A DNA stretch of 64,000 nt from Nostoc sp. PCC 7107. GTDB lineage: Bacteria > Cyanobacteriota > Cyanobacteriia > Cyanobacteriales > Nostocaceae. How positions within the stretch are numbered: position 1 is the stretch's first letter; every line of letters begins with the position of its first letter. Where the stretch lies: positions 3,180,501 to 3,244,500 of the forward strand of contig NC_019676.1 of NCBI RefSeq assembly GCF_000316625.1, given 5' to 3'. The position numbers and the translations under genes are program-made. This document shows, one piece after another, positions 42,903 to 50,437 of this stretch. Under the pieces are notes generated by a model, which did not search any database, was not told where the DNA came from, and saw nothing but the letters and a program-made list of their open reading frames with translations.

Positions 42903-44147
42903 CTAACTATTTGCCTTGCTAAACACCCGGTAATACAGCCATGTACTAGTTTCCTTGAAGGGAAATAGCAAATAAGTCAGAGGATTAATTGTTACAACAA
43001 TGTTGCGGAAATCTCGGACTGCTAAAAATAAAATGAATTGCGCCACTTGGTTAGCTGACATCACGCCATAGGGATTCAGTTGACTTTTAAACGGGCCGAG
43101 AATTAACTTACGAATAATGCAATTACCTTCCAAGCGCTTAAGAGTCACAATGTTACCCAAGGTGCGTTTACTCAGTTCATAAAGCGGACTCAGTGCTGGT
43201 GATACTTCCGCCTCAGAAGTATTCACCCAGATTTCTTTAGTGGCTTTGTCTTGTGGCCCTGTCACCGTTGTCAAAAAGACATCCATCAAACGCAATGCCG
43301 AAAAGGTGTTAACCTCGTAGGAAGAATTGATAGCTTGGGGTGTGCGATCGCCATAGACATTCACACCATGATTGATAATCAAAATATCGACTTTCTCTAA
43401 ACTATCTCGCAGTTGTACTTCATTCCCCAACTCCCAAGTCAGCACCATTACCTTTGTTTGGGTAGCTAACTTCTCTGGATTTGTCGTGATGGCTAAAACC
43501 TTTGCATTGCGTTTGAGAAGTTCTCCTGTTAATGCTTGTCCTAAAGTCCCAGACGCACCAGTGATGGCGATGGTTTTACCTTTGAGAGAAAGTCCAGTAC
43601 CGAGAATTTTATCCACCAGCGGAAACACCCCGCTATAGTAGGCATTAACATCATCAAAATGATGTCGCCAATGGTAGGCACGATTTACCCACCAAGTTGC
43701 AGGAATTATTTCTAAAGGGCCGGGTAAATGGTTGTAGTCGGTATCAATTTTTCCTTGAAAATACCGCAACGATGCACCATACAAAAAGGTGTAAGCATAC
43801 GCTACCCCTAACCATAAACCCCATTGGTGGCCTAATAAAGCTGCGATCGTCAAGATGATTACTAACAGAATCGACTCTACAATGTCGTGATAAAGCTGGG
43901 ACTCTTGATAAAGTTTGAGCGAAACGATCGATAAATCTCGGCGATATGCTGCATGATGCTTGTTATGCCATTTAGCTAACCAAATGACTTTGTGACACAA
44001 AGCATGGTAGCTGTCTCTAAGTACCTCAGCCAACAACAGCGAAAAAACTCCCCAAGCCGCAAACTGCAAACAGGTATTTACTAGCAGCCAATTCATTTGT
44101 ATATTTGCTTCAATCCCCGTCCAGCTTTGGGCTAACATCTTGATCAT
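42903..44147 (-). CDS. Fatty acid hydroxylase (sterol desaturase-like)/short-chain dehydrogenase fusion
   Basis: A 414-residue two-domain protein. The N-terminal half (about 15-175) is membrane-embedded and carries histidine boxes HALCHK, WHNKHH and YHWRHHFDD of the di-iron fatty acid hydroxylase/sterol desaturase superfamily, with hydrophobic helices between. The C-terminal half (about 185-414) is a short-chain dehydrogenase with the Rossmann motif IAITGASGTLGQAL, NHGVN (as NHGVNVYG), and a Tyr-xxx-Lys candidate in PLYELSKRTLG. Such fusions are annotated in cyanobacteria as bifunctional sterol desaturase/short-chain dehydrogenase; the substrate is not established, a membrane lipid being likely. 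A second ATG at 44138 is an alternative start. Confidence 0.9.
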   Translation of the reverse strand: MIKMLAQSWTGIEANIQMNWLLVNTCLQFAAWGVFSLLLAEVLRDSYHALCHKVIWLAKWHNKHHAAYRRDLSIVSLKLYQESQLYHDIVESILLVIILTIAALLGHQWGLWLGVAYAYTFLYGASLRYFQGKIDTDYNHLPGPLEIIPATWWVNRAYHWRHHFDDVNAYYSGVFPLVDKILGTGLSLKGKTIAITGASGTLGQALTGELLKRNAKVLAITTNPEKLATQTKVMVLTWELGNEVQLRDSLEKVDILIINHGVNVYGDRTPQAINSSYEVNTFSALRLMDVFLTTVTGPQDKATKEIWVNTSEAEVSPALSPLYELSKRTLGNIVTLKRLEGNCIIRKLILGPFKSQLNPYGVMSANQVAQFILFLAVRDFRNIVVTINPLTYLLFPFKETSTWLYYRVFSKANS

Positions 44148-44950: not shown

Positions 44951-44990
44951 TTATCGAGCTTGTTCTTAAAAACTAGAACAAGCTCGATAG
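44951..44990 (-). terminator. Strong hairpin, terminator of the repeat-protein gene
   Basis: TATCGAGCTTGTTCT (44952-44966) and AGAACAAGCTCGATA (44975-44989) give a perfect 15-bp stem with an 8-base loop, 30 bp past the stop of the 45019-45636 gene. The rest of 44620-45018 is AT-rich and holds no gene. Confidence 0.75.
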
Positions 44991-45018: not shown

Positions 45019-45636
45019 CTATCTTCTGGTATTAGAGCGATTCCCTTCAGGAGGATGAGCGGGAACACCCAAAGCATCTTTTAATTTTTGTTCACTGACA
45101 CCTAACTTTTGGGCGGCGGTGGCGAAATCGGGGCGGGGTGGGCGTTGACCTTGGCCTTGACCGGGAGGATGAGCAGGAACACCCAAAGCATCTTTTAATT
45201 TTTGTTCACTGACACCTAACTTCTGGGCGGCGGTGGCGAAATCGGGGCGGTGTGGGCGTTGTCCTTGGCCTTGACCGGGAGGATGAGCAGGAACACCCAA
45301 AGCATCTTTTAATTTTTGTTCACTGACACCTAACTTTTGGGCGGCGGCGGCGAAATCAGGGCGGGGTGGGCGTTGTCCTTGGCCTTGACCGGGAGGATGA
45401 GCAGGAACATCCAAAGCATCTTTTAATTTTTGTTCACTGACACCTAATTTTTGGGCGGCGGCGGCGAAATCGGGGCGGGGTGGGCGTTGTCCTTCTGGTG
45501 GTTGTTCGGAAGGTGGTGAAGCTTGGGCAATTTTATACACTGGATTAGCTGCATTTACTTGGTTAAGTGAAATTACGCCAAATGTACCAGTCAGAATTGA
45601 AATTGCTGTTACGACTACGGCTTTGTTCAGTTTCAT
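45019..45636 (-). CDS. Secreted protein of four nearly identical 38-residue repeats
   Basis: The ATG at 45636 is chosen because AGAGG precedes it by 6 bases; the ATG two codons earlier would be too close to it. The 205-residue product has a signal peptide (MKLNKAVVVTAISILTGTFG, cleavage near NQVNAA), a short linker, and four copies of a 38-residue unit: RPPRPDFAAAAQKLGVSEQK followed by LKDALGVPAHPPGQGQGQ. Each unit holds one amphipathic helical segment of the kind (AAxxLGVSExxLxxAL) seen in secreted actinobacterial and cyanobacterial proteins, and a Pro/Gly/Gln-rich spacer. The DNA repeats are 114 bp and almost identical, so expansion is recent. It shares the palindromic operator with the two-component genes nearby. 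Function unknown; export to periplasm or outside is likely. Confidence 0.85.
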   Translation of the reverse strand: MKLNKAVVVTAISILTGTFGVISLNQVNAANPVYKIAQASPPSEQPPEGQRPPRPDFAAAAQKLGVSEQKLKDALDVPAHPPGQGQGQRPPRPDFAAAAQKLGVSEQKLKDALGVPAHPPGQGQGQRPHRPDFATAAQKLGVSEQKLKDALGVPAHPPGQGQGQRPPRPDFATAAQKLGVSEQKLKDALGVPAHPPEGNRSNTRR

Positions 45637-45712
45637 AATCATCCTCTAGAAAGTTAAGTGGTTCATGTTTTTTATTTAACCGAATCAAAATTACAGTTCG
45701 CCCTGATTGTGG

Positions 45713-45728
45713 ATTACAGTTTTGTAAT
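45713..45728. promoter_or_regulatory. Shared palindrome ATTACA-N4-TGTAAT, site 1
   Basis: ATTACAGTTTTGTAAT, 76 bp upstream of the start of the repeat-protein gene. A further half site ATTACAG begins 23 bp away at 45690. The same palindrome occurs at 46983 and 47101. It probably binds the adjacent OmpR-type regulator. Confidence 0.7.
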
Positions 45729-45753
45729 TTTTGTGCATGGTATTTTGCCGAAA

Positions 45754-46548
45754 TTATGCGATCTGAAGCCCAACATCAAAGGTGGCGGTGTAACCTTTTC
45801 TATTGCTTGTTAGCTTGAGTAGCATTTGCTCACCACCATCTTGAAAAATGCCATCATCAGCATTCTTGAGAGTGCGTTGTCCTTTGCTGGCGTAGGGTGG
45901 TTGGGTGTAGATGCGATCGCTCATGGCATCATCAAAATATAATTGCGATGTAAACTCATAACTCTGCCCAGATTTCCCCTCTGTACGCACCTTAAAGTGG
46001 ATATGGACGGTTCTACCTGGATACCAACCAGGGTAAATAGTTGTGAACTGAACATTTCCCTGCGCGTCGGTAACTTGATAACCGCGTAAGAACTTTTTGC
46101 CCACAGTATTAAAACTGCGGTCTGTTACGTCTGAATAGACACCTAATGCGTCACAATGCCAAATATCAACGATCGCATCTGCAAGGGGTGTACAACCACT
46201 ACCCCCAACTTGAGAAATATGCAGCTTCAATTGCAGGGGTACGCCTGCTTTTACCGAACCATCCACCGGATCGGCGCGAATATCAGAACGATTGAGCTTC
46301 TCATCGACAAAATACGGCCCTTCAGTTTGTTGTGGACTGACTATACATCCAGGCAAGTTAGCAGAATTAGTCGTAGATGAGACTGGAGTAGCTATACTTA
46401 CTTGTTGTTGTGGAGAGATAGACTTTTTCGGCATACATCCCACCACAAATATTGCAGTTCCGCCTGCCCTCAATAAACCCAGTGCTTCTCGGCGACTTAA
46501 TAGACGATTATTGATGTTCATCAGCTTTAACTTTTGAATAATTTTCAC
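45754..46548 (-). CDS. Exported intradiol dioxygenase-like protein
   Basis: A 264-residue protein from a GTG at 46548; an ATG at 46521 is equally possible. The N-terminus contains SRREALGLLRAGG followed by a hydrophobic stretch and FVVGC, which reads both as a Tat-like signal and as a lipobox, so the protein is probably exported and lipid-anchored. The catalytic fold of protocatechuate 3,4-dioxygenase/catechol dioxygenase is complete: Tyr138 (IWHCDALGVYSD), Tyr176, His182 and His184 (YPGWYPGRTVHIHFKV) are the four iron ligands. TEGPYFVDEKL is the N-terminal family signature. The family cleaves catechol-type rings; substrate here is unknown and no ring-degradation genes are nearby. It lies 80 bp after the small secreted protein gene and is likely co-transcribed with it. 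Confidence 0.9.
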   Translation of the reverse strand: MKIIQKLKLMNINNRLLSRREALGLLRAGGTAIFVVGCMPKKSISPQQQVSIATPVSSTTNSANLPGCIVSPQQTEGPYFVDEKLNRSDIRADPVDGSVKAGVPLQLKLHISQVGGSGCTPLADAIVDIWHCDALGVYSDVTDRSFNTVGKKFLRGYQVTDAQGNVQFTTIYPGWYPGRTVHIHFKVRTEGKSGQSYEFTSQLYFDDAMSDRIYTQPPYASKGQRTLKNADDGIFQDGGEQMLLKLTSNRKGYTATFDVGLQIA

Positions 46549-46628
46549 ACTTATTAGGTCTTAAATGATTAGGATTTACGCGCCAAGATGGGCGTTAGCA
46601 GTTGTCCAAACTAACACCCAAAACCCCT

Positions 46629-46907
46629 CTACCCCCGTTGTCTAGATTCTTGGTGATTCTGCTTGTCACTTCCATCTTGATGATCATTTGTGTTCTGAAG
46701 ATTAATTTGCGGAGGACGCTTTTTCTGTTGTGGACGGGATTGGCGATGTTTAATTTGGGGTTTTTTATTCGGCCTTGGCTGTTCTGTAATCTGTGTGTTG
46801 TGCCGAGCAGGTGCTTCAGCATTTGCCGGATTAGATGCCACAAAACCAAATGTGCCAATCACAAAAGGAATTGCTACTACAGCTAATACTCTGCGAATAT
46901 TCATCAT
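46629..46907 (-). CDS. Small secreted basic protein
   Basis: A 92-residue protein starting MMNIRRVLAVVAIPFVIGTF with a signal peptide cleaved near NPANAEA. GAGG lies 6 bases before the first ATG. The mature part of about 60 residues is very polar and basic, rich in Gln, Pro, Arg, Lys, His and Asn (KKPQIKHRQSRPQQKKRPPQ), and looks disordered. I know no family. The signal peptide (VIGTFGFVASNPANA) resembles that of the repeat protein at 45019 (TGTFGVISLNQVNA), suggesting common ancestry of the two N-termini. It is preceded by palindrome site 2 and followed on the same strand by the dioxygenase-like gene. Confidence 0.78.
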   Translation of the reverse strand: MMNIRRVLAVVAIPFVIGTFGFVASNPANAEAPARHNTQITEQPRPNKKPQIKHRQSRPQQKKRPPQINLQNTNDHQDGSDKQNHQESRQRG

Positions 46908-46982
46908 TATTAACCTCGAAAATTACTGTTGCTTACATTTGTGATTAAGCCACTCTAAAATGACAAATGATCTATTTTCTCT

Positions 46983-46998
46983 ATTACACTTTTGTAAT
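46983..46998. promoter_or_regulatory. Shared palindrome ATTACA-N4-TGTAAT, site 2
   Basis: ATTACACTTTTGTAAT, 75 bp upstream of the small secreted protein gene, almost the same distance as site 1 from its gene. It would control the 46907-45754 two-gene unit. Confidence 0.7.
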
Positions 46999-47100
46999 TT
47001 GATCAAAGAATGATGAGAGGGTGTAGAAAAAGTATTTGGTGATATAATTTATTGCTACATTGACGGCTGAAAAAGCAAGTTTTTTAAACTAAATCGCTAA

Positions 47101-47116
47101 ATTACAGATTTGTAAT
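47101..47116. promoter_or_regulatory. Shared palindrome ATTACA-N4-TGTAAT, site 3
   Basis: ATTACAGATTTGTAAT, ending 56 bp before the response regulator start. A TATAAT -10 element follows at 47139-47144, 22 bp past the palindrome, so a bound protein would cover the -35 region. Suggests autoregulation of the two-component operon. Confidence 0.7.
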
Positions 47117-47138
47117 TTAAGTAACAAGATAACAAATC

Positions 47139-47144
47139 TATAAT
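47139..47144 (+). promoter_or_regulatory. -10 element of the two-component operon
   Basis: A consensus TATAAT 28 bases before the GTG start of the response regulator gene. No consensus -35 is seen; the operator palindrome stands in its place, as in activator-dependent promoters. Confidence 0.6.
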
Positions 47145-47172
47145 GAAACAATCAGTGAATTAGTGAAAGCTT

Positions 47173-47856
47173 GTGAACGTTCTGTTTGTCGAAGATGAAG
47201 CAAAAATTGCTAACTTCGTCCGGGCTGGACTGAAGGAACAGGGTTTTGTCGTAGACTATTGCGACAACGGTGATGATGGATATCTGCGAGCAATGGATAA
47301 CGAATATGATGCCATTATTCTGGACATTATGGTGCCAGGAAAGGATGGTTTATCAATTCTCAAACAACTACGACGGGAAGGGCGGAATGCTCCCGTAATT
47401 TTGTTAACGGCTCGCAATGAACTAGACGATCGCCTCGCTGGTTTAAACTTGGGAGCCGATGATTACATTGCTAAACCCTTTTTTGTGGAAGAATTAGCGG
47501 CGCGGATTCATGCGGTGGTGCGTCGGAGTGTAGGCGATCGCCAAAATTTGCTGGCGGTTGGATCAATCAAACTTGATCGCATCACGAGGGAAGTGACTTG
47601 CAATCAAAGCGCTATAGAACTTACTAGCCGCGAGTTTAATCTACTGGAATATCTTATGCGCTCTCCTGGTCGAGTGTTCACCCGTACCCAAATCTTAGAA
47701 CACATTTGGGGTTATGATTTTAACCCCAATACTAACGTTGTGGATGTCTGCATTCAGCGCATTCGCAAAAAAATTGACCCGATAGATGAAACAAATTGGA
47801 TTGAAAGCATTCGCGGCGTGGGCTATCGGTTTCGCAAACCAGACAATCAATCGTGA
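47173..47856 (+). CDS. OmpR/PhoB-family response regulator
   Basis: A 227-residue regulator beginning at a GTG (47173), MNVLFVEDEAKIANFVRAGL. The receiver domain has the acidic pair Glu/Asp in VEDE, phosphoacceptor Asp51 in IILDIMVPG, the switch Thr in LLTARNE and Lys in YIAKPF. The C-terminal winged helix has IELTSREFNLLEYLMRSPGR and VFTRTQILEHIWGYDF, then VVDVCIQRIRKKI, typical of OmpR. It should bind DNA as a phosphorylated dimer; the palindromes at 45713, 46983 and 47101 are the best candidates. The stop overlaps the sensor kinase start by four bases (GTGA), so both are translated together. Confidence 0.96.
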   Translation: MNVLFVEDEAKIANFVRAGLKEQGFVVDYCDNGDDGYLRAMDNEYDAIILDIMVPGKDGLSILKQLRREGRNAPVILLTARNELDDRLAGLNLGADDYIAKPFFVEELAARIHAVVRRSVGDRQNLLAVGSIKLDRITREVTCNQSAIELTSREFNLLEYLMRSPGRVFTRTQILEHIWGYDFNPNTNVVDVCIQRIRKKIDPIDETNWIESIRGVGYRFRKPDNQS

Positions 47857-49307
47857 AACAAATGCGATCGTTTCGATTCCGCATTGCGCTGTTATCCGCG
47901 ACTCTAGCCGGCACTACATTAGTCGGTTTTGGTGCAGTATCTTGGTTTCAGATTTACAATGCTAAAATTAGCCGCCTTGATGTAGAACTGTTAAATCAGT
48001 TGCTCCGTGCCAACCGTTCCCCAGAGACGGAAAAATTACCCCCACGCCCAGAACTATTACCTTCTGACTTTGGGACAAATTCAAAAACTCCCATCGCCTT
48101 ACTGATACTGGATATTAACGGTCAGACAATCCGTGAATTTAACTCCTTATCTGTGGATACTGAGGTGAAAGGTTTACTAATTCAGCGTCTGGAGTTAGCA
48201 CCTGCGCCACCATCTATTCCTCGACAACGACCGCCTGTAATTTTTGGCACAAATCAGCCTGTAAAACCACCACCTCGCCCAATTCCACCGCAATTTATTA
48301 CAGAAAAAACCGCAAAAGCAACTTGGCGGATTGGTGCAGCTAAATTTCCTAATTCTCAAGTGGCTTTCGCTGTCAGCCTACAAGCCGTTAATCAAGAAAT
48401 GGCGAGTATTCGCAACATCTTCCTCATATCAATTCCGGGAGCTTTGTTTTTAGTGGCGGTTGGGGCTTGGTTTGTTTCTGGTGGTGCGTTACATCCCATC
48501 CGCCAGCTAACCGGGGTAATTCAACAGGTAACAGTCCAAGGTTTAGATCAGCGGATTCCCAGTGAGACAACAGATGTGGAATTTGTGGAACTGATTCGGG
48601 TGTTTAACCAAATGTTAGAACGCCTGGAACGCAGTTTTACCCAAGCTTCGCGCTTTAGTGCAGATGCAGCCCATGAACTGAAAACCCCATTAACTATTTT
48701 GCAAGGTGAATTAGAGCGATCGCTCCAACAAGTTGAGCCGGGAAGTGAAGTACAGCAACGCTTAAGCAATTTATTAGATGAAGTGCATCGCTTGAGTGGA
48801 ATTATGCGAAAACTCTTGCTGCTGTCTTTAGCAGATGCAGGCAAAATGAGCTTGTATCTGGCTGATGTGAATATGTCTGAGTTGCTACTGGAGATTGTCG
48901 AAGATGTAGAATTGCTGGCTCCTCACTTGAGTGTGCAAACTGACATTCCTGATAATTTGCAGGTGAAGGGCGATCGCGATTTACTCATACAAGTTCTCCA
49001 AAATTTGCTGAGTAATGCAATTAAATATAATTTTGCTGACGGCTGGATTAAGATTCAGGCCTATCAAACACAGAAAACTCTTAAAGTTACAATTGCCAAT
49101 TCCTCAAAAGACATTTTACCCAGCGATCGCGATCGACTTTTTGAGCGCTTTTATCGTGGTGATCCAGCCCGCACCCGGAAAATAGAAGGAATCGGGCTGG
49201 GACTCAGCCTCGCCCGCGAAATTGTCCGGGCGCACCAGGGCGAACTAGCGCTGGATTCTCTAACTTCTGGTCAAACAGGATTTATTCTCACTTTACCCAG
49301 AACATAA
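47853..49307 (+). CDS. Membrane sensor histidine kinase paired with the OmpR regulator
   Basis: A 484-residue kinase starting at the overlapping GTG. It has two membrane helices (about 10-32 and 188-210) that enclose a periplasmic domain of about 155 residues containing proline-rich stretches (RQRPPVIFG, VKPPPRPIPPQ). Then come a HAMP domain (about 212-262, GALHPIRQLTGVIQQVTVQG), HisKA with SADAAHELKTPLTILQGELE (His274) and an ATPase domain with N box LLSNAIKYN, a G1 box shortened to ANSSKDI and G2 IGLGLSLAREIV. The G1 Asp-x-Gly motif is replaced by NSSKD, as in some CopS/CusS-like sensors. The signal should be extracytoplasmic; metal stress is one possibility from the family but is not shown. 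Confidence 0.94.
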   Translation: MKQMRSFRFRIALLSATLAGTTLVGFGAVSWFQIYNAKISRLDVELLNQLLRANRSPETEKLPPRPELLPSDFGTNSKTPIALLILDINGQTIREFNSLSVDTEVKGLLIQRLELAPAPPSIPRQRPPVIFGTNQPVKPPPRPIPPQFITEKTAKATWRIGAAKFPNSQVAFAVSLQAVNQEMASIRNIFLISIPGALFLVAVGAWFVSGGALHPIRQLTGVIQQVTVQGLDQRIPSETTDVEFVELIRVFNQMLERLERSFTQASRFSADAAHELKTPLTILQGELERSLQQVEPGSEVQQRLSNLLDEVHRLSGIMRKLLLLSLADAGKMSLYLADVNMSELLLEIVEDVELLAPHLSVQTDIPDNLQVKGDRDLLIQVLQNLLSNAIKYNFADGWIKIQAYQTQKTLKVTIANSSKDILPSDRDRLFERFYRGDPARTRKIEGIGLGLSLAREIVRAHQGELALDSLTSGQTGFILTLPRT

Positions 49308-49813: not shown

Positions 49814-50437
49814 GTTTCAATCCCTAATAGGGATTAAGTGAAATTTCAACCAAATTTATCTTTGTGTTTGCCGCCTATGATTTTGTTTCAATCCCTAATA
49901 GGGATTAAGTGAAATTTCAACTTTCTTCCCGCCAACGCTGTCACCTGACTCTAAAAGTTTCAATCCCTAATAGGGATTAAGTGAAATTTCAACTTAATAT
50001 GTCCACAATCCGCCAAGTTTTAGATGAGGGCGAGTTTCAATCCCTAATAGGGATTAAGTGAAATTTCAACATTGTTTACTGATGTCCACATATTTAAGCT
50101 TATGAGTTTCAATCCCTAATAGGGATTAAGTGAAATTTCAACTTGCGAGTGCCGCGTATTTTAATGGCTCCATCTGTTTCAATCCCTAATAGGGATTAAG
50201 TGAAATTTCAACTGTATATGTAATAGCAGTAAATAACGGTCAACCCAGTTTCAATCCCTAATAGGGATTAAGTGAAATTTCAACGGGTAATTTGTCTGAG
50301 TCAGTATGACAAAATCGCTGCTTGGGGTTTCAATCCCTAATAGGGATTAAGTGAAATTTCAACTTATCAGGAGTAAAACGGCGGACAATTTTAAATTGAA
50401 GTTTCAATCCCTAATAGGGATTAAGTGAAATTTCAAC
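49814..50437 (-). CRISPR. CRISPR array: nine 37-bp repeats, eight spacers
   Basis: Repeats start at 49814, 49885, 49957, 50034, 50106, 50176, 50248, 50327 and 50401; as read all nine are identical. On the plus strand the repeat starts GTTTCAATCCCTAATAGGG and ends ATTAAGTGAAATTTCAAC, with the palindrome AATCCCTA/TAGGGATT inside. Spacers are 34, 35, 40, 35, 33, 35, 42 and 37 bp. Read on the minus strand the repeat ends ATTGAAAC, the usual 5'-handle of cyanobacterial crRNAs, so transcription is probably right to left with the leader at about 50438-50560. The degenerate copy at the left end fits that. No cas gene is in the window. Repeat type cannot be fixed to one subtype by eye. Confidence 0.97.

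Follow-up and report, generated by a model that had tools for sequence, protein, structure and literature searches.

We analyzed a 64,000-bp stretch of contig NC_019676.1 of Nostoc sp. PCC 7107 (positions 3,180,501 to 3,244,500 of the forward strand, hereafter the window), in which positions 45,019 to 49,307 encode a two-component system, a small exported basic protein (SBP), an exported dioxygenase, and an exported repeat protein (REP). These genes share a conserved operator whose spacing follows a strict rule, which marks them as a small, probably autoregulated regulon; this conclusion is firm on the sequence side, and the biological role attributed to the regulon is probable. We consider it likely that the locus forms a small envelope-stress regulon that controls its own expression and operates in the manner of the BaeSR-Spy system of enterobacteria, using a two-component system of the copper type. 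The regulator and kinase genes run to the right, and the genes encoding SBP, the dioxygenase, and REP run to the left. The features of the locus, in window coordinates, are the following.

47173..47856, + strand: OmpR/PhoB-type response regulator; GTG start; D51, T79, and K101 present; Pfam PF00072 and PF00486
47853..49307, + strand: sensor histidine kinase; two long membrane helices, periplasmic PAS/PDC-like loop, HAMP, HisKA (His274), and HATPase
47101..47116, + strand: regulator-side palindrome ATTACAGATTTGTAAT, exact match
47139..47144, + strand: TATAAT, 22 bp past the palindrome; the regulator gene probably has its -10 element here
46983..46998, - strand: palindrome of the SBP-dioxygenase unit, exact match
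46957..46965, - strand: third half-site of the SBP-dioxygenase unit, TGTCATTTT, 17 bp past its palindrome (promoter alignment and operator scan)
46944..46948, - strand: TTAAT, the TNAAT block and possible -10 region of the SBP-dioxygenase unit, conserved in relatives
46629..46907, - strand: SBP, 92 amino acids, rich in Pro and Gln by composition; Sec-type export signal by eye
45754..46548, - strand: exported intradiol ring-cleavage dioxygenase; PF00775; Tyr138, Tyr176, His182, and His184
45713..45728, - strand: palindrome of the repeat-protein unit, exact match
45687..45695, - strand: third half-site of the repeat-protein unit, TGTAATTTT, 17 bp past its palindrome (promoter alignment and operator scan)
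45674..45678, - strand: TAAAT, the TNAAT block and possible -10 region of the repeat-protein unit, conserved in relatives
45019..45642, - strand: REP, 207 amino acids, four units of 38 amino acids; Sec-type export signal by eye
44952..44989, - strand: terminator-like hairpin of 15 pairs located 3' of the REP gene (consensus scan only; 7 sites in the region against 4.7 expected)

The palindrome in the window and the genome

The palindrome ATTACA-N4-TGTAAT was present in three exact copies, at the positions listed above, and no further copy was detected in the window. Three palindromes were obtained in none of 100 shuffled windows (mean expectation of 0.01). With up to two mismatches, 10 matches were detected against 5.3 expected; only the exact palindromes therefore stand out in the window. 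Five exact palindromes were found genome-wide (6.33 Mb), three of them at this locus, and the reversed-pattern control returned none. The fourth copy (L001; L and G numbers designate loci and genomes throughout) ended 123 bp before an exported-looking open reading frame (ORF), with a C-terminus in which, by eye, we presume a PEP-CTERM-like tail. The fifth copy (L005) was located inside an ORF of PfpI-like look, also judged by eye. Both were devoid of the third half-site described below, which was sought at 0 to 3 mismatches, and two off-locus palindromes in 6.33 Mb is roughly the chance level implied by the shuffles.

A preliminary description of this DNA had reported three palindromes and none elsewhere in the window, and all three of its coordinates were exact, as were its distances of 75 bp to the SBP ORF and 56 bp to the regulator gene. 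The distance of 76 bp that it gave for the REP gene holds for the second ATG and not for the listed start at 45642, which gives 70 bp. Two elements had been missed, the third half-site located at 17 bp in the effector promoters and the motif TANNAT located at 22 bp in the regulator promoters.

Promoter classes and distribution in relatives

Matches to the sensor region of the kinase were obtained in 24 of 148 order-level genomes (E 1e-10) and in 87 of 217 family genomes (E 1e-30). The family sample comprised 40 loci from 40 of these 87 genomes, mostly the best scoring ones. An exact palindrome was present upstream of the kinase gene in 36 of the 40 loci, and 69 palindromes were collected in all. 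Alignment of the promoters of the relatives revealed two classes, effector-type and regulator-type. For 59 of the 69 palindromes, the third half-site, TGTMATTTT, lay on the effector side (away from the regulator) at a spacer of exactly 17 bp, as counted at up to two mismatches to TGTAATTTT. It was found on the regulator side of none of them, and any other spacer of 8 to 30 bp gave 0 or 1 occurrence. The 10 palindromes lacking a third half-site on either side were mostly regulator-side boxes and included three in L294. The effector promoters of the family loci additionally displayed a TNAAT block 34 to 38 bp past the palindrome. Both effector promoters of the window carry the palindrome and the third half-site at 17 bp.

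For the regulator-type class, 19 order-level and 36 family regulator loci were examined for TANNAT. The arrangement palindrome-N22-TANNAT was found in 44 of the 49 promoters with a palindrome within 200 bp (14 of 14 order-level loci and 30 of 35 family loci), and the motif was located at 21 bp in three further family loci. This spacing is what would be expected of an activator that binds over the -35 region. The box located between the SBP and regulator genes was doubled in the window, in five of the seven same-genus loci fetched, and in L274; it was single in most other family loci.

The full effector operator was scanned at up to three mismatches in 22 hand-picked genomes, 12 with the kinase and 10 without. 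At 0 or 1 mismatch, this extended operator was present in 10 of the 12 kinase-bearing genomes and in one of the 10 kinase-free genomes (G026). The genome of the window contained it at this level only at the two sites of the locus, three other sites having three mismatches. Each of the 11 kinase-bearing genomes in which exact palindromes were counted had between one and five of them. The preliminary description had proposed a real operator and one small regulon with a box in the promoter of the regulator itself, and had held that many palindromes in unrelated places would speak against this proposal. No such scatter was observed, and the conservation and rarity of the full effector-type operator back the putative operator and support the predicted regulon. 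A sharply defined operator of this type implies that likely regulon membership can be read from the genome.

Thirty-five loci were fetched around kinase or dioxygenase matches, of which 18 contained an exact box, three only a one-mismatch box, and 14 none. The boxless loci comprised nine dioxygenase-only loci and five kinase loci. In the genomes of four of the latter, the box preceded the repeat gene at another locus (L078, L079, L086, and L110), and the operator also accompanied the repeat gene away from the kinase in L053 and L057. In G055 (L059), no box was seen, this genome not having been scanned whole.

Close regulators were found in Nostoc sp. LEGE 06077 (98% identity) and Nostoc calcicola FACHB-3891 (91%), and further carriers belonged to Planktothrix, Microcoleus, Kamptonema, Sphaerospermopsis, and Nodosilinea. 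Bins of Gallionella and Methylococcaceae also encoded regulators at 68% identity, with other small proteins of exported appearance next to them. A related regulator-kinase pair (59–63% identity for the regulator) was also found in Pontiellaceae, Hydrogenedentes, and Puniceicoccales bins (L163, L168, and L169), next to exported proteins that appeared by eye to be EF-hand-like or Pro-rich. In G295, the kinase match lay within an open frame of 2133 amino acids, possibly a fusion.

Sensor and exported proteins

The best NCBIfam matches of the regulator and the kinase were TIGR01387 (242 bits, cut-off of 279.2) and TIGR01386 (249 bits, cut-off of 292.55), respectively, both scores being below the cut-off. 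A trait of the heavy-metal family, a 6-4-6 palindrome in target promoters, was present. Scores were far below the cut-off with the BaeR model for the regulator (156.8 bits versus 380) and with the BaeS model for the kinase (172.3 bits versus 500). The sensor loop of the window kinase (146 residues) contained no His, Met, or Cys that could provide soft-metal ligands, and none of these residues was invariant in the loop among 12 aligned kinases; M183, located beside the second membrane helix, was invariant in all 12. The model of the loop was PAS/PDC-like, with residues ~112–147 forming a Pro-rich insert, and matched the sensors WalK, PhoQ, CzcS, and CusS. No metal pump or metal resistance gene was found in the window unit.

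All target products had been described as carrying export signals, and our analysis supports exported-looking products, the signals of the three non-kinase products being read by eye. In each unit of REP, a Pro/Gly/Gln-rich linker carries a short LGVSEQKLKDAL bead of two helices, and the units are encoded by a tandem array at 45050-45494 (period of 114 bp, 3.9 copies, 96% matches). The mature protein contains 16% Pro, 10% Gly, and 11% Gln, and its AF2 model was of low confidence (pLDDT of 58). The number of REP units varied among near relatives, with four in the window and one in LEGE 06077 (L149), and a shorter protein of 129 amino acids was present in L258. SBP matched no Pfam family at E 0.1, and neither REP nor SBP matched the LTXXQ/Spy family PF07813 at the same threshold.

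The dioxygenase scored above the cut-off for PF00775 (55.1 bits versus 27.3) and contains the two Tyr and two His iron ligands. The strict ligand pattern was found in 26 of 30 orthologues (those scoring above 240 bits, after removal of shorter and broken matches); the other four keep the same Tyr, His, and His, with neighboring changes. The N-terminus appeared by eye to be of the Tat type, with a lipobox-like VVGC, and translation may actually begin at the ATG at 46518. The solved structure closest by sequence was PDB 6bdj (Tetur07g02040; E 7.1e-28), which we take from its name to be a protein of the spider mite Tetranychus urticae. The intradiol dioxygenases of the spider-mite family are secreted, cleave catechol-type plant compounds, and are reported to detoxify plant aromatics (PMC9167512); the cyanobacterial enzyme is likened to them by sequence. 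In Nostoc sp. LEGE 06077 (L149), the dioxygenase gene was broken into short frames and the regulator, kinase, SBP, and REP genes were kept together with three boxes. L259 displayed the same broken gene, with an equal contig extent, and is probably the same contig; intact copies were present in other relatives.

The genes located at the effector position were exchanged among relatives. In the 40 family loci, matches to REP, SBP, and the dioxygenase were detected in 30, 19, and 17 loci (one dioxygenase gene being broken), respectively. Other families encoded LTXXQ proteins at this position: five of the seven candidates tested scored above the PF07813 cut-off (L060, L061, L104, L107, and L155) and two below it (L074 and L153). 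The LTXXQ genes of L104 and L107 were located away from the regulator-kinase pair with the operator in front. Two candidates were tested with the Spy model, and gave 37 bits for L104, below the cut-off of 174, and no match for L155. The operator also preceded a dioxygenase gene (L075), a gene for a DUF3011 protein (L106), and genes for an export adaptor (L266, L287, and L290). In L290, the adaptor was followed by ABC components with MacB as the best match, below the cut-off, and in L107 the LTXXQ gene was followed by an RND adaptor. Palindromes were found near a similar adaptor in L294, with weak third half-sites (three to four mismatches), and in L068 only an adaptor lay beside the pair. In L067, genes for an adaptor and an RND pump were divergent from the regulator gene; by its scores, the pump is nearer to the multidrug model (691 bits, cut-off of 1250) than to the CusA/CzcA model (421 bits, cut-off of 701). 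Thus, unrelated exported proteins (LGVS repeats and LTXXQ) are exchanged under one promoter grammar, and the LGVS-repeat proteins can for this reason be tested as chaperones or binding proteins.

Known systems and competing explanations

The preliminary description had not recognized this system from the literature. The palindrome is in fact the 6-4-6 box already described for AgrR and LciR, which are regulators of the CusR/CopR type, and the pair scores best against heavy-metal families, below their cut-offs. The AgrR box of Cupriavidus metallidurans is reported to be ATKACANNNNTGTMAT, with a proximal direct repeat that contributes to activation. For LciR of Legionella, the reported box is ATTACAAnnTTGTAAT, and two short elements located between the box and the effector -10 are suggested to steer activation to the effector. 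The lciR gene is reported not to be autoregulated, whereas the Nostoc regulator has a box in its own promoter too, with a fixed spacing of 22 bp to the -10. The Nostoc system further differs by a sensor loop free of His, Met, and Cys, by a unit without a metal resistance gene, and apparently by the fixed 17-bp position of its effector half-site. Regulators encoded beside copper genes on two plasmids had one-mismatch boxes and a similar recognition helix, with no half-site at 17 bp; for a third regulator, that of C. metallidurans, the only site had two mismatches. The data suggest that a copper-type regulator and its box were co-opted for a role unrelated to metals.

The core BaeSR regulon is reported to consist of BaeSR, Spy, MdtABC, and AcrD (PMC4107485), with tannins, flavonoids, indole, tungstate, and zinc as inducers (PMC4107485, PMC8144458). 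Besides its own genes, BaeSR controls Spy-type proteins and RND pumps of the drug type, and the gene types under or beside the operator in the relatives recall this set. In contrast to BaeSR, the regulon adds a dioxygenase and the LGVS-repeat protein, the window unit holds neither a Spy-type gene nor a pump, and the Nostoc regulator and kinase resemble BaeR and BaeS poorly, as described above. Synechocystis CopRS is also a cyanobacterial two-component system with an exported-protein gene (PMC4284471); it differs in its targets, CopBAC, which is an efflux pump for metal, and CopM, which binds copper. Spy homologues occur in some cyanobacteria (PMC8144458), and no report of a Spy/Bae-like envelope-stress regulon in cyanobacteria was found among the listings of open-licence papers searched.

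We infer the following mechanism. The membrane kinase would sense a condition outside the inner membrane and phosphorylate the OmpR-type regulator, which would bind the palindrome as a symmetric dimer and activate, rather than repress, two kinds of promoters. In the promoter of its own operon, the palindrome would act from 22 bp before the -10 element; in the promoters of the exported proteins, the half-site located 17 bp beyond the palindrome would point activation to the effector gene. REP and SBP may act in the envelope as binding or chaperone-like proteins, in the place of the Spy-like LTXXQ proteins of relatives, and the dioxygenase may open catechol-type rings there, joined in some relatives by export pumps.

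Several observations weigh against this proposal. The chaperone-like role of REP is argued from position only, and REP is not homologous to LTXXQ proteins; operator binding and expression are themselves predictions. Three of the 40 family loci were devoid of the palindrome (L273, at a short contig end, L293, and L297) and L283 had only one with a mismatch. The kinase-bearing genomes G126 and G086 lacked the extended operator at 0 or 1 mismatch, and the bare exact palindrome was less specific, being present in 10 of 10 kinase-bearing genomes and also in four of 10 kinase-free genomes. In L080 and L082, dioxygenase genes located away from the pair, with LTXXQ-like neighbors by eye, had no palindrome, nor had seven other dioxygenase loci. 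Three further cases, also unfavorable, bear on particular alternatives. L155 displayed a match to the heavy-metal-resistance family PF13801 at the effector position, and L059 contained an orphan kinase orthologue with no adjoining regulator amid MerR-, ArsR-, and transporter-type genes (by eye), a setting that suggests capture of the kinase by a metal island. Both would be accounted for by a response to copper, silver, or zinc, with the pair sensing metal in the manner of CusRS/CopRS and the exported proteins buffering it, an explanation that we regard as unlikely for a sensor loop and a unit of the composition reported above. The third case, G026 (92% complete; L075, L104, and L105), had three exact palindromes, two of which preceded an LTXXQ gene and a dioxygenase gene, and its regulator and kinase were not found. 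This is the pattern expected if the palindrome were the general operator of another regulator, with the two-component system as merely one target. The co-occurrence of the extended operator and the kinase in the 22 genomes, the small number of exact copies per genome, and a box form that fits the closest characterized regulator family make this very improbable. That the genes are simply adjacent, with chance or repeat-derived palindromes and no regulon, would agree with the accidental appearance of two of the five genomic copies; this explanation is contradicted by conservation, the spacing rule, and the control spacings, and we give it hardly any credence.

The composition of REP and SBP is comparable to that of salivary proline-rich proteins. 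A more specific form of the envelope-stress regulon, which is conceivable and which we put forward only tentatively, is a defense against polyphenols such as tannins and catechols. The sensor would detect protein-binding phenolics directly or via misfolding, REP and SBP would serve as secreted sinks, and opening of the catechol ring would fall to the Tat-type dioxygenase; in relatives, Spy-like proteins and export pumps would fill these roles. Phenolics as the signal are a guess.

Two neighboring features of the window were also recorded. A CRISPR-like array with 37-bp repeats (GTTTCAATCCCTAATAGGGATTAAGTGAAATTTCAAC) spans positions ~49814-50437 and begins ~0.5 kb past the kinase gene. On the other side of the locus, the ORF at 42903-44147 fuses a fatty-acid-hydroxylase-type half to a short-chain-dehydrogenase half.

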